NCBI GenBank assembly: GCA_025993795.1
Contig: JAMQHL010000049.1
Coordinates: 62,001-126,000 of the forward strand
Length of the DNA stretch: 64,000 nt
Source: Planctomycetota bacterium
GTDB taxonomy: Bacteria > Planctomycetota > UBA8742 > UBA2392
Direction: 5' to 3'
In this document: one piece after another, positions 56,807 through 62,036 of the stretch
Layout: each line of letters starts with the position of its first letter
Position numbering within the stretch: position 1 is the first letter of the stretch
Translations under genes and position numbers: made by a program
The notes under the pieces: generated by a model
Seen by the model: only the letters and a program-made list of their open reading frames with translations
Told to the model about the DNA's origin: nothing
The model's database searches: none

Positions 56807-56899
56807 TGGCGGGAGCACATGGGAATCGAACCCACCTGACACTTGCGCGTCACTACGGTTTTGAAGACCGAGAGGCCCACCAGGCGCCTTTCTGCTCCC
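56807..56899 (-). tRNA. selC: tRNA-Sec(TCA), selenocysteine
   Basis: A 93-base tRNA with encoded CCA. The anticodon arm is CGGTCTTCAAAACCG (anticodon TCA), with a long variable arm (GTGACGCGCAAGTGTCA-type pairing), an extended acceptor (GGGAGCAG against GTGCTCCC, the eighth pair being G-G) and T-arm GTGGGTTCGATTCCCAT. Opposable UCA, extra-long acceptor and long extra arm identify tRNA-Sec. It lies downstream of the selA-glycosyltransferase pair and decodes UGA with SelB. Confidence 0.96.
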
Positions 56900-56956: not shown

Positions 56957-57622
56957 TTACCTCCCACGCTGCCGCCACAACTGCCGCAGAAACGCAAAGC
57001 CATACCTGAGCAAACGGTTCTTGCTGCGACCCTTGCCCCTTGGGTAGTAATGGATGCCGACTTCTTTCACTTTCGCATTCTTCTTCCCGGCCCATGCAAG
57101 CAATGCCGGCTGTACCTCAAAGTAGCGCGCGGTGATCTGCGCGTCGGCGAACACCTCCCTGCGATACAGCCGAAACCCGCTGCTCACGTCACGCACGGGC
57201 AAGAGGGCAATCGTGGCAAACATGCCGGCAAGCATGCGCGACAGAAAGCGCCGAAACGCGCTGCCATCGCTGCCGCCACCGGCGGCATAGCGCGAGCCGA
57301 CAACCAGGTCGGCGCCCTGCCTTGTGTCCCACAATTTGCGCGCGTCTTCGGCGCGGTGACTGCCGTCAGCGTCCATTACCAGCACCCATTCGCTGCCGGC
57401 TTGACGCATGCCCTGCATCAAGCTGTCAGCATATCCGCCGGTGTTGACGATGACGGTAGCGCCTTCGGCGTGCGCCTGTTGCCTCGTGTCGTCTTTGCTG
57501 TCGCCATCGACCACAAGAAATGCGGGCGCAGGCAGCACATCGCGCAGGGCGCGAATCAGCGGGCCGATGTTGCCGGCTTCATTGATCGTGGGCAGGACGA
57601 CGGTCAACTCAGGCACGGTCAA
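56957..57622 (-). CDS. Family 2 glycosyltransferase
   Basis: A 221-residue GT-A enzyme of the dolichol-phosphate-mannose-synthase-like type: LTVVLPTINEAGNIGPLIRA, VVDGDSKDDT, the DxD-type VLVMDADGSHRAED, VVGSRYAAGGG and RDVSSGFRLYRREVF. It lacks C-terminal membrane helices, so it is the soluble type. The TTG start overlaps the selA stop (TTGA), so it is coupled to selA. A direct role with selenium is not known; the pairing may be incidental. It may modify a lipid or protein glycan. Confidence 0.88.
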   Translation of the reverse strand: MTVPELTVVLPTINEAGNIGPLIRALRDVLPAPAFLVVDGDSKDDTRQQAHAEGATVIVNTGGYADSLMQGMRQAGSEWVLVMDADGSHRAEDARKLWDTRQGADLVVGSRYAAGGGSDGSAFRRFLSRMLAGMFATIALLPVRDVSSGFRLYRREVFADAQITARYFEVQPALLAWAGKKNAKVKEVGIHYYPRGKGRSKNRLLRYGFAFLRQLWRQRGR

Positions 57623-59025
57623 GCCTGCCTGGCGGATGCAATAGCTGCAACCAGCTCTGCATCCTGGCCGGGCAGCAGTGTTCGGGGGTCAAAGACCAGG
57701 GCGTCGTTCTCGATACGGCAGAACACGCTGGGTGTGCCCATGCGCAGACGTTTTGCAGCTGCGTCGGGCGAGCCGCCAAGCTTGTCGATCACGAGCACGG
57801 TCGTCGGCAACTCTTCGCCGGGGGTGGAGCCGCCGCCGATCTGGCTTGTGCTTTCCTGCAACGTCGCAGTTACGCCATGCTTGGCAAGCCGCCTGGCAAT
57901 GCTTCGCGCGAGCTTGGCCACCTGTGCAGCCGGGCGCGCGATCGCCGCCAGTGTGGGCACAGACTGCGTTGCAGTTGACGTGTCAAGATACAGCTTCAGA
58001 GTGTGCTCAAGCAGGCTCAGCGTAACTTTGTCGCAGCGCATCATCCGGAACAGCGCGTTTTTCTTGATCTTGTCGATCAGCCCCTTGCGCCCCACGATCA
58101 TGCCTGCCTGCGGGCCGCCGAACAGCTTGTCGCCGCTGAAGCAGACAAGATCGGCGCCGGTTGCCACCAGTTCAGGTACCGTCGGCTCGCGCGTGATGCC
58201 CCACGGCTTCAGGTCAACAATGCTGCCTGCGCCCAGGTCATACACAACCGGAATGTTGCGGCGCCGCCCCACTTCGACAAGCTCCTCCAGCGATGCCTCT
58301 TCGGTAAACCCGACAATCGCGTAGTTGCTGGTGTGTACTTTCAGCAGCATTGCCGTGCTGTCGCTGATCGCGTCTTCATAGTCTTTGGGCTTGGTCTTGT
58401 TGGTGCAACCGACCTCAACCAGGTGGCAGCCGGCTTTGCGCATCACGTCAGGCATGCGATAGCTGCCGCCGATTTCGACCATATGGGCACGCGAGCAGAC
58501 AACGTCCGCGCCATCGGCCAGGGCGTTCAGGATGATCATGGTTGCCGCGGCGTTGTTGTTCACGACGGTGGCGGCTTCGGCCCCGGTGATTTTTTCAATC
58601 AGCGCGTTCACAAGCTTGTCGCGGTCGCTGCGCTTGCCGCTGGCGCGATCAAGCTCGAGACACGAGTACCCGGCGGCTTCGCGCATCGCGGCTTCGACGG
58701 CAGCGGGCGCCAGCGGCGCGCGCCCGAGCGAAGTGTGCAGGATGACGCCCGTGGCGTTGATGACCCGGCACTGGATCGGCCCCATTAACCGCGCAAGCCG
58801 TTGGCCCACGCGCACGGCCAGCACTTCGGGCGTAAGCTCGGACAGGAACACATGTTTGTCTTCACGAATTCCGTGGCGCAACTCATCGAGCGCAAGGCGG
58901 GTTTCACCCGTTGCGAGGTCACGGCCGTGGGCTTCAAGAAGGCCCGCAAAGGCAGCATGGCCGAGCAGGGCGTCCAGCTTGGGCAGGTCTCGCGGCGTGG
59001 CGATGTTGGATGCGGTCTTGGTCAC
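57619..59025 (-). CDS. selA: L-seryl-tRNA(Sec) selenium transferase
   Basis: A 468-residue PLP enzyme. The PLP lysine is Lys300 in CFSGDKLFGGPQAGMIVG. Other marks are CRVINATGVILHTSLGRAPL, EAAGYSCLELDRASGKRSDR and NNNAAATMIILNALA. It converts Ser-tRNA(Sec) to Sec-tRNA(Sec) using selenophosphate. The start is GTG 59025 (MTKTASNIATPRD); the start signal is weak. It lies downstream of two selenoprotein genes and upstream of a glycosyltransferase and tRNA-Sec. selB and selD are outside the window. Confidence 0.97.
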   Translation of the reverse strand: MTKTASNIATPRDLPKLDALLGHAAFAGLLEAHGRDLATGETRLALDELRHGIREDKHVFLSELTPEVLAVRVGQRLARLMGPIQCRVINATGVILHTSLGRAPLAPAAVEAAMREAAGYSCLELDRASGKRSDRDKLVNALIEKITGAEAATVVNNNAAATMIILNALADGADVVCSRAHMVEIGGSYRMPDVMRKAGCHLVEVGCTNKTKPKDYEDAISDSTAMLLKVHTSNYAIVGFTEEASLEELVEVGRRRNIPVVYDLGAGSIVDLKPWGITREPTVPELVATGADLVCFSGDKLFGGPQAGMIVGRKGLIDKIKKNALFRMMRCDKVTLSLLEHTLKLYLDTSTATQSVPTLAAIARPAAQVAKLARSIARRLAKHGVTATLQESTSQIGGGSTPGEELPTTVLVIDKLGGSPDAAAKRLRMGTPSVFCRIENDALVFDPRTLLPGQDAELVAAIASARQA

Positions 59026-59195: not shown

Positions 59196-60119
59196 CTAGC
59201 TGGCGCTCTTGATGGCCTCGTCGATTTCCTTCTCGAGGTCAGTCTTCTTGAACTCTTTGGCCAGGTTCTTGAGGCCCGCGGTGTCCTTCTTCTCGGCAAG
59301 CGTCTTCATCTCTTCGCGCGCTTCGTCGAGAATCTTGTGGTACAGCCGAATGGTCTCTTCCTGCGCCGCAAGGCCGACGATGCCTGCCTTGAAGTTCTTC
59401 AGGATGTTGCTCAACGCGCCTTTCCGGTCGGCCTTTTCGTGGGCCGCAGTGGCCTTGTCGAGAGTGCTCTGCAGCTTGGCGTTGTCCTTTTCCGAGGCTT
59501 CCTTGACCTTGTCGACCATGGACTCGAGCGACTTGGCGGACGGCGCCGAGTAAAGGCGATTGTGCTCGTTCCCGTAGCTGTCGGTGACCAGGATGGTGCT
59601 CTGGCCGACCTTGATTCCATAGTCGCGGGCCGGGTTGTCGCTCAGCAACTTGCTGGTCGGCACAGTGCTTTCCGTAGCCCAGGGCGACTTCTCGCGGTCA
59701 GCGTTGTATGGAAGCTTCAGGAAAAGCGCTGAGGACTTGCTGAGGTCAGCGATTTCCTTGCCCGAGAAGCTGGCGTCCGACTCATTTTCAGAGGGGAACC
59801 AGATCACCAGGGGACGACCCTCGCGCGCTGCGCTTTCAAGCGCATCGGTGGATGGCCGCTGCCATGACGGAAGTTCTTCGGGTTTGACTGTGGGGCCGGC
59901 TGGACGGGCTGCGCCACCGCCACCACCCTGTCGATCAACACGACCGACGGTCTTTCCGCTACCAGATGCGCCCGTACCCGGGCCGCTGGAAGCTCCACCT
60001 GAGGAGGCACCGCCCCCTCCGCCACCGCCACATCACTGTGCTGCAAGCGGCTGCGCGATGATGCCGGTGAGCACGAATGCCCCAGCCGCCGCGAGCGCCA
60101 TAATATTGAAACGCTTCAT
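59196..60119 (-). CDS. Putative exported selenoprotein, Sec-Cys form (TGA at codon 29)
   Basis: Reading from ATG 60119 (GGAGGAG six bases upstream) through TGA 60033-60035 gives 307 residues: signal MKRFNIMALAAAGAFVLTGI, conserved IAQPLAAQ, then Sec29-Cys30 (TGA TGT), then a Gly/Ser-rich linker (31-75) and a domain from about 75. That domain has RPLVIWFP, ALFLKLPYNADREKSPW, VPTSKLLS and VTDSYGNE, resembling a thioredoxin fold without CxxC, followed by a charged helical C-terminus. It is paralogous to the next gene upstream. Nearby selA and tRNA-Sec support Sec. A conventional reading would start at 59807 and lack signal and linker. Confidence 0.85.
60003..60020 (-). promoter_or_regulatory. 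SECIS-like hairpin of the Sec-Cys gene
   Basis: GGAGG/CCTCC stem with loop GGGCGGTG begins 12 bases after TGA; the loop starts 17 bases after it, within the usual 16-37-base window for bacterial SECIS loops. The loop begins with G as expected. The surrounding Gly codons make the stem GC-rich, so specificity is uncertain. Confidence 0.5.
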
Positions 60120-60288
60120 CGAATCTCCTCCAGATTGAGGTCAAACCCAGCACCTGTGTTCTAGTGGAACAGCCTAGCACTTAGTTACAGGTCAAACGAC
60201 AAATTCACGGATCTTGTTCGACACAGCCGTCCTGTATGACAAAGTGATGACAAATGGCTGTGGCTCTCAAAGAGCTGAAGAACGCAAG

Positions 60289-60312
60289 AGGGGCGGCCCG
60301 AAGGCCGCCCCT
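60289..60312 (-). terminator. Terminator after the Sec-Sec gene
   Basis: AGGGGCGGCC and GGCCGCCCCT form a perfect 10-bp stem with a 4-base loop, 43 bases after the stop at 60356, followed on the minus strand by CTTGCGTTCTT. Confidence 0.7.
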
Positions 60313-60355
60313 TAGTCATGTTGCGATGGAAATCCATCCAGCATTGGCTGAACAG

Positions 60356-61222
60356 CTAGCCCTTGGTGGTCTGGGTGCTGGGATTCTTGAGGGCTTCGTT
60401 GGCTTCTTTCTCGAGGTCGGTGCCTTTGTAATCCTTGGCAATGCCCTTGAGGCCGTCGACGTCACCCTTTTCGTGCATTTCCTTGATGCGATCGCGGCCG
60501 GCGTCCATGATTTCGTGGTAGAGCTTGATGGACTCAACCTGCGAAGGAAGGCCCACTACGCCCTCCTTGAAGTTCTTGAGCAGCGTCTTCACAGCGTTCT
60601 TGTCGTCCTGCTTGCTGTGCTGGTCGCGTGCCTTTTCGAGATTCTTGAACAGCTTCTTGTCCGCCTTGTCCGCCTCGTCCTTGACTTTGGCGATCAAGGC
60701 CTTGAGCGCATCGGTCTTTACCTTGGCGCCCGGACGGAAGTAGCTGTTGCCGTAGCTGTCGCACACGAACATGTCGGCTTTGCCAACGGAAACACCGTAG
60801 GCCAGTGACGGATTCGGACTCAGCAGCTTGCTGGTCGGAATCACTGAGTCTTCCGTCCAAGGCGACTTCTCGCGATCGGCGGAGTACGGAATCTTGATGA
60901 AGAGCGCGTCTTCCTTGCTCAATGCCGCCCAATCATCACCATACAGGTCAAAGTCGCTGTCCGCCTCGTCCGGGAAGTACAGGACGATCGGACGCCGCTC
61001 CGCTGCCGCTGTTTCCAGCGTGGCGGCATCGGCCTTGTTCCAGGACGGAACCTTGTTGGGATCTTTCGTGCGGGCTGCACCAGCCCCGGAGTTGGTCGGA
61101 CGATCAACGCGTCCGGCCTTACTCCCACCACCTCATCACTGGCCCGCAAGCGGCTGGGCAATCACGCCGGCAAGGCTGCCGACTACGATGCTCAGGGCCG
61201 CGATCGTGAGGAACTTTCTCAT
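60356..61222 (-). CDS. Putative exported selenoprotein, Sec-Sec form (two TGA at codons 29-30)
   Basis: Reading from ATG 61222 (GGAG, six-base spacing) through TGA TGA at 61133-61138 gives 288 residues: signal MRKFLTIAALSIVVGSLAGV, IAQPLAGQ, Sec29-Sec30, Gly/Ser linker, then a domain with RRPIVLYFP, ALFIKIPYSADREKSPW, IPTSKLLS and VCDSYGNS, then helices ending in KG. The same codon position holds TGA TGT in the paralogue at 59196. The two genes share IAQPLA-Q-U-x-GGG and the domain. Without recoding, only 60356-60922 would be seen, with no signal peptide. Function unknown; a redox-active vicinal pair on a flexible tether is plausible. Confidence 0.85.
61094..61118 (-). promoter_or_regulatory. 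SECIS-like hairpin of the Sec-Sec gene
   Basis: CGGACG/CGTCCG six-base stem, extended by two G-C pairs across a C-A mismatch, loop CGTTGAT. The loop starts 26 bases after the first TGA and 23 after the second. G is the second loop base, as the bacterial SECIS rule expects. Stronger than the hairpin of the other gene. Confidence 0.6.
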
Positions 61223-61454: not shown

Positions 61455-62036
61455 ATGCCATTCGAACTGCCCAAGCTACCGTACGCCAAGACTGATCTCG
61501 CGCCGCACCTGAGCGAGGAAACCTTCAACTATCATTACGAAAAGCACCACACCGCATATGTGACCATCCTCAACAAACTCACTGAGGGCAAGCCCGAAGC
61601 CGGCAAGTCCCTTGAGGACCTGATCAAGACCACCGAAGGCGGCGTGTTCAATAGTGCGGCCCAGGTGTGGAATCACACGTTCTATTGGCACAGCATGAAG
61701 AAGGGCGGCGGCGGCGCGCCGACCGGCAAGTTGGCCGATGCAATCAACAAAGACTTCGGCAGCTTCGACGAATTCAAGAAGCAGTTCACTGAAGCCGCCA
61801 CCACCCAGTTCGGCAGCGGTTGGGGCTGGCTGGTCAAGGGCAAAGACGGCAAGTTGAAGGTGGTCAAGACCGGCAACGCCGATTGTCCGCTCAAATACGG
61901 CGACACCCCGCTGCTGACGATCGACGTGTGGGAGCACGCGTACTACATTGACTACCGCAACGCGCGCCCCAAGTACATCGAGACCTTCCTTAACAACCTT
62001 GCCAACTGGGACTTCGCAGCCAAGAACCTGGGATAG
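61455..62036 (+). CDS. sodB: Superoxide dismutase, iron type
   Basis: A 193-residue Fe/Mn superoxide dismutase. Metal ligands and family marks: NYHYEKHHTAYV, VWNHTFYWHSMKK, FGSGWGWL, VWEHAYYIDYRN. FNSAAQVWNH with the Gln and AATTQFGSGW favour the iron form. It removes superoxide in the cytoplasm (no signal peptide). AAGGAG lies nine bases before the ATG. It is divergent from the selenoprotein gene and behind a palindromic operator. Confidence 0.95.
   Translation: MPFELPKLPYAKTDLAPHLSEETFNYHYEKHHTAYVTILNKLTEGKPEAGKSLEDLIKTTEGGVFNSAAQVWNHTFYWHSMKKGGGGAPTGKLADAINKDFGSFDEFKKQFTEAATTQFGSGWGWLVKGKDGKLKVVKTGNADCPLKYGDTPLLTIDVWEHAYYIDYRNARPKYIETFLNNLANWDFAAKNLG

Follow-up and report, generated by a model that had tools for sequence, protein, structure and literature searches.

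Genes at the selA locus

The window analysed here is the whole stretch of 64,000 nucleotides (positions 62,001 to 126,000 of contig JAMQHL010000049.1) from a member of the Planctomycetota. Near its end, two adjacent genes on the minus strand carry in-frame TGA codons directly behind a signal peptide and adjoin selA:

56807..56899, minus strand: tRNA-Sec, anticodon UCA, position conserved
56957..57622, minus strand: glycosyltransferase (family 2) gene; its place between selA and tRNA-Sec is conserved
57619..59025, minus strand: selA, selenocysteine synthase, adjoining the selenoprotein pair
59196..60119, minus strand: selenoprotein gene 1 (P0001, U29-C30), stop codon TAG, assigned from homologues and dN/dS
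60033..60035, minus strand: TGA (Sec) at codon 29 of gene 1, followed by TGT as codon 30 (60030-60032)
60039..60119, minus strand: signal peptide of gene 1, about 27 aa, with a GGAGGAG ribosome-binding site ahead
60356..61222, minus strand: selenoprotein gene 2 (P0002, U29-U30), stop codon TAG, assigned from homologues and dN/dS
61133..61138, minus strand: TGA TGA tandem (Sec-Sec, codons 29-30) of gene 2
61142..61222, minus strand: signal peptide of gene 2, about 27 aa
61455..62036, plus strand: Fe/Mn superoxide dismutase (SOD) gene, divergent conserved neighbour

With TGA read as selenocysteine (Sec, U), gene 1 encodes a 307-aa protein (M...AQPLAAQ-U29-C30-GGGGGGG..., one TGA) and gene 2 a 288-aa protein (M...AQPLAGQ-U29-U30-GGGSK..., two TGAs), both ending at TAG. 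The two proteins share 45 % identity from end to end, including the TGA junction. The translations thus agree with the earlier note on this DNA, which had described tandem paralogues with TGA at codon 29, TGT or TGA at codon 30, and a conserved block spanning the TGA. A general recoding of UGA, already discounted in that note, was rejected, since TGA is the most frequent stop codon among the 38 long open reading frames (ORFs) of the window (18/38). A consensus scan for promoters and terminators returned nothing above chance.

The genome from which the window derives harbours selA, tRNA-Sec, selB and selD; lack of the latter two would have counted against Sec insertion according to the note. 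SelD of this genome is itself a selenoprotein with Sec in a GAGUGCK motif (L193, G000:C70:24866-25786), and its gene has one in-frame TGA in 16/16 genomes. The adjacency of selA and tRNA-Sec to the pair claimed in the note applies to selA; tRNA-Sec is near rather than strictly adjacent, located about 2.3 kb beyond the pair, since selA and one glycosyltransferase gene intervene. Judged from coordinates, the Sec cluster immediately precedes selA in 15/16 genomes, and ten named loci largely preserve the arrangement SOD (divergent), cluster, selA, glycosyltransferase, tRNA-Sec (SOD in 8/10, selA in 9/10, tRNA-Sec in 9/10). No reductase or electron donor adjoining the cluster was identified.

Distribution of the family and junction motifs

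Homologues are present in 16/16 genomes of the Planctomycetota family to which the window belongs, with 3-8 copies per genome. The class comprises 20 genomes, and the four lacking a Sec homologue lie outside this family. A phylum-wide sample of 392 genomes showed Sec members with a junction TGA in the window's family only. Relatives in viral contigs were not found. A search for the U[UC]GGG arm on unrelated proteins retrieved chance matches only, none with a signal peptide, and where TGATGHGGNGGNGG occurs outside the family, it is not preceded by a signal peptide either.

The N-terminus could be assessed for 82 members. A TGA directly following the signal peptide is found in 67/82, Cys at this place in 7/82 and neither in 8/82. 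The 67 Sec members comprise 25 with U-U, 23 with U-C and 11 with three Sec residues (UxSU...TUGQ); the remaining eight display a single U (5), UGGU (2) or C-U (1). The first Sec is positioned exactly at codon 29 in 43/67, and the Sec residues of all paralogues add up to 2-12 per genome. Recurrence of TGA at the same junction in 67/82 members and 16 genomes excludes chance and artefact. Homologues with C, U-C and U-U at this place had been predicted, and all three forms were indeed found. Clean starts behind the TGA were not seen among the homologues; rather, the signal peptide with the U/C junction is their most recurrent feature.

A third paralogue in the window's own genome contains three Sec (UASU...TUGQ; L080:1219-2022, G000:C72:53227-54018), and all three are kept in 11/11 intact members of this subclade. 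One paralogue (L050:8699-9577, minus strand) displays G-C-U-G at the junction, the same letters as the C-terminus of thioredoxin reductase. In the same clusters, Cys-rich paralogues have multiple Cys within the Gly-rich arm, arranged in arrays (CSGGGCSGGGCG...). The eight paralogues with neither Sec nor Cys in the arm (L038:6925-7698, L051:2185-3090, L053:1303-2202, L074:2708-3616, L076:1778-2686, L068:1545-2351, L068:5598-6494 and L070:1457-2347) indicate that the fold has some use without a Sec/Cys arm. Two members in one genome (L061 and L063, G008) are apparently split by frameshifts, in one case within the Gly tract; assembly indels are the probable cause.

Other Planctomycetota possess distant homologues with a single Cys at the same place, within the invariant block TCGGGGGGG, the longest one of these Cys forms. 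Homologues starting with this block include L100, L103, L104, L106, L108 and L112, some of which carry a fused, long C-terminal part containing repeats.

Recoding signal

Bacterial SECIS elements are delimited by a small apical loop, an early G and a distance of 16-37 nt from the UGA (PMC13188914). Both window genes possess a candidate hairpin:

60001..60019, minus strand: SECIS-like hairpin of gene 1, stem of 8 bp, GGU triloop 21 nt past the TGA
61094..61118, minus strand: SECIS-like hairpin of gene 2, stem of 6+2 bp, CGUUGAU in the loop, 23 nt past the second TGA

The hairpin of gene 2 is within the published limits (PMC13188914) but outside the alignable triloop class. A loose bSECIS criterion is passed by 67/67 genes, but also by 91 % of codon-shuffled controls, and is therefore uninformative in GC-rich DNA. 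It was replaced by a stricter test based on covariation, with the alignment anchored on the protein and not on folding. In many genes, this test revealed a hairpin of 7-8 bp whose GGU-type loop lies 18 or 21 nt past the first TGA. In the alignment of 26 sequences, 94.7 % of the cells pair. The covariation score is 0.430; shuffles score 0.165, with 0/500 reaching the real value, and sliding the pairing partners gave 0.142 at most. A perfect stem with 6 or more base pairs is present in 82 % of the Sec genes versus 26 % after codon shuffling, and a GGN triloop is present in 28/67 Sec genes versus 0/7 Cys genes. No more than about half of the genes belong to the alignable triloop class, folding z-scores of individual genes are weak, and no SECIS model of Rfam matched, even in a permissive scan. 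Since spacings of both 18 and 21 nt occur in single-UGA genes, the single hairpin of a U-U gene is in range of its two adjacent UGAs and probably serves the pair.

Selection and tree

Across twelve orthologue or paralogue pairs, dN/dS ranges from 0.02 to 0.18 downstream of the TGA and from about 0 to 0.42 upstream of it, where the stretch is short. According to these sequence comparisons, purifying selection acts on either side of the TGA, which agrees with the claim of coding sequence on both sides. On the tree of the body domain, U-U and U-C are interchanged at least nine times, implying that the second motif position tolerates Sec or Cys; the Cys forms fall into about three separate groups. 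P0001 (U-C) clusters with U-C and U-U genes of the two nearest relatives, its closest counterpart there being U-U. Taken together, coding sequence on both sides, a covarying SECIS-type hairpin, the full Sec machinery and the interchange with Cys in place leave hardly any doubt, at the level of sequence, that the UGA codons of this family are decoded as Sec.

Protein architecture and mature N-terminus

In AlphaFold2 models of 65 members (mean pLDDT 88), a disordered arm at the N-terminus is followed by a thioredoxin-like domain and, C-terminally, by a helical part. For gene 2, the predicted structure places the domains as follows:

60728..61048, minus strand: thioredoxin-like domain, about aa 59-165, no CxxC
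60386..60715, minus strand: C-terminal helical domain, about aa 170-279

The best Foldseek match in the PDB is DsbH (2ju5, E 5e-4). The thioredoxin-like fold lacks a CxxC active site, and the strand expected to precede it runs into acidic and Ser/Asp residues. Models and Foldseek search hence support the CxxC-less thioredoxin-like fold that had been supposed from the sequence. The FAD/NADPH domains with CxxxxC of a thioredoxin reductase are lacking: there was no flavoprotein match, and the model consists solely of the thioredoxin-like domain and helices.

The only Cys of P0001 is C30 and that of P0002 is C154; P0001 is among 25/67 Sec members without any Cys outside the motif. Should the family consist of redox enzymes, the active group has to be the pair at the N-terminus. 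The proposal of the earlier note that the U-U or U-C pair is the active group is strengthened by these 25 members, and is one that we still infer.

A signal peptidase I site with small residues is predicted 0 or 1 residue before the Sec/Cys in 74/74 motif-bearing members. Given this position, the mature protein probably starts with the motif.

Proposed function and alternatives

A redox arm in the cell envelope appears to be the most likely mechanism, a view held with moderate confidence. Signal peptidase I would cut directly or one residue before the pair, and the first residues of the mature protein would be (Q/G)-Sec-Sec, (Q/G)-Sec-Cys or Sec-x-Ser-Sec. These would sit on a disordered, Gly-rich arm linked to the CxxC-less thioredoxin-like domain and the helical domain. 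The vicinal pair would cycle between the selenol/thiol state and a selenenylsulfide or diselenide, and would reduce peroxides or disulfides in the cell envelope; the folded domains would serve docking and not catalysis. The conserved SOD neighbour fits a role in oxidative defence without proving it.

The main rival to the redox arm is capture of soft metals or metalloids, the N-terminal Sec/Cys tip binding Hg, Cu, Ag or As and the folded domain acting as carrier. The Cys-rich paralogues of the same clusters, with several Cys in the Gly-rich arm, lend themselves to this reading, their arrays suiting metal binding as much as redox chemistry, and several catalogued selenoprotein families bind metal (PMC13188914). 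Most Sec members, however, offer merely one or two ligand residues in the arm, and the conserved neighbour is a SOD and not a metal-efflux or mercury gene, rendering metal capture rather unlikely. Even less probable is a structural or storage role, in which intermolecular diselenide, selenosulfide or disulfide links would form in the cell envelope or selenium would be stored. The exported location and the multiple paralogues per genome with 2-12 Sec altogether would agree with this, but one to three Sec per protein make a poor store, and strong purifying selection on the folded domain suggests a specific interaction.

The proteins might also be lipoproteins, with Sec/Cys as the lipidated +1 residue and the Gly tract as the lipoprotein linker. 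A loose lipobox pattern does occur in 27/74 members, and unrelated Planctomycetota lipoproteins (L190, L191) start with AAC-GGGGGG. However, a strict lipobox before the first Cys/Sec is found in only 1/74, the -1 residue is Gln in 29/74 and Thr in the distant Cys homologues, and lipidation would leave the second or third Sec unexplained; this reading is accordingly very improbable. Finally, TGA as a true stop (a short leader followed by a re-initiated downstream protein) or as a sequencing or pseudogene artefact is scarcely credible: mechanical ORF finding does return only the post-TGA ORFs of the two genes, with GTG/TTG starts, but the TGA is conserved across independent MAGs, which also speaks against the sequencing error considered in the earlier note, paralogues have Cys at the same place, the hairpin covaries, dN/dS is below 1 on each side and the Sec machinery is complete.

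Returning to the redox arm, one may speculate that a single SECIS decodes the tandem UGA-UGA and that the product bears a vicinal diselenide at the mature N-terminus of an exported protein. Such an arrangement, tentatively proposed, could represent a new type of extracytoplasmic redox centre, mirroring the C-terminal arm of thioredoxin reductase and occurring in several paralogues per genome within one bacterial family.

Relation to known systems

Mammalian thioredoxin reductase has a C-terminal -GCUG arm, i.e., a vicinal Cys-Sec pair beside glycines on a flexible tail. The family resembles this arm in the vicinal pair next to glycines, and one member has GCUG. It differs in that the protein is exported and free of flavin and bears the pair, mostly U-U or U-C, at its mature N-terminus; a sequence relation to thioredoxin reductase does not exist. 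With DsbH, DUF255 and Thioredoxin_7-type domains the family shares the fold, DsbH (2ju5) being the best PDB match, and weak sub-threshold Pfam matches concern Thioredoxin_2, Thioredoxin_7 and Thioredox_DsbH. In contrast to these domains, however, the family has no CxxC, possesses an extra helical C-terminal domain and carries Sec/Cys on an N-terminal arm. CnoX/YbbN, the second and third Foldseek matches, likewise combine a thioredoxin-like domain with a helical C-terminal part, but TM-scores are low (about 0.26) and the sequence match is not significant. In the three-Sec subclade, the U[AG]SU motif is similar to that of the UGSC-containing selenoprotein (NF041046), but the NF041046 model did not match three members of this subclade.

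Pfam and NCBIfam searches with the window proteins and 65 members gave no family model above cut-off, and a sequence search of the PDB retrieved nothing significant. In the 2026 catalogue (PMC13188914, Table 1), which covers 119 families and subfamilies of prokaryotic selenoproteins, no entry has a U-U motif; the two-Sec families there display UxxU, CxxU, UxxxxU and similar motifs. Shared with the catalogued proteins are UGA-encoded Sec, a downstream stem-loop and, for most of them, a thioredoxin-like fold (PMC13188914). Selenoproteins of planctomycetes were reported earlier (PMC4807772), and those described in the available part of that report belong to other families. A survey of the accessible literature on tandem UGA or diselenide proteins of bacteria and on Planctomycetota selenoproteins yielded no prior report. 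The proteins thus form a hitherto undescribed family of bacterial selenoproteins, new also in the arrangement of Sec and, in the genomes searched, restricted to a single Planctomycetota family.

Significance

With 67 Sec genes found, this is a sizeable selenoprotein family that has not been listed so far, and its Sec placement, one to three Sec opening an exported protein, often as Sec-Sec, is outside the 2026 catalogue. Standard-code gene calling would miss such proteins or cut them at residue 28. The U-U genes offer a natural system for how bacterial SelB decodes two adjacent UGAs with one hairpin. Moreover, the naturally occurring U-U, U-C, C-U and C versions make the benefit of Sec over Cys, and of a diselenide over a selenosulfide, accessible to measurement.
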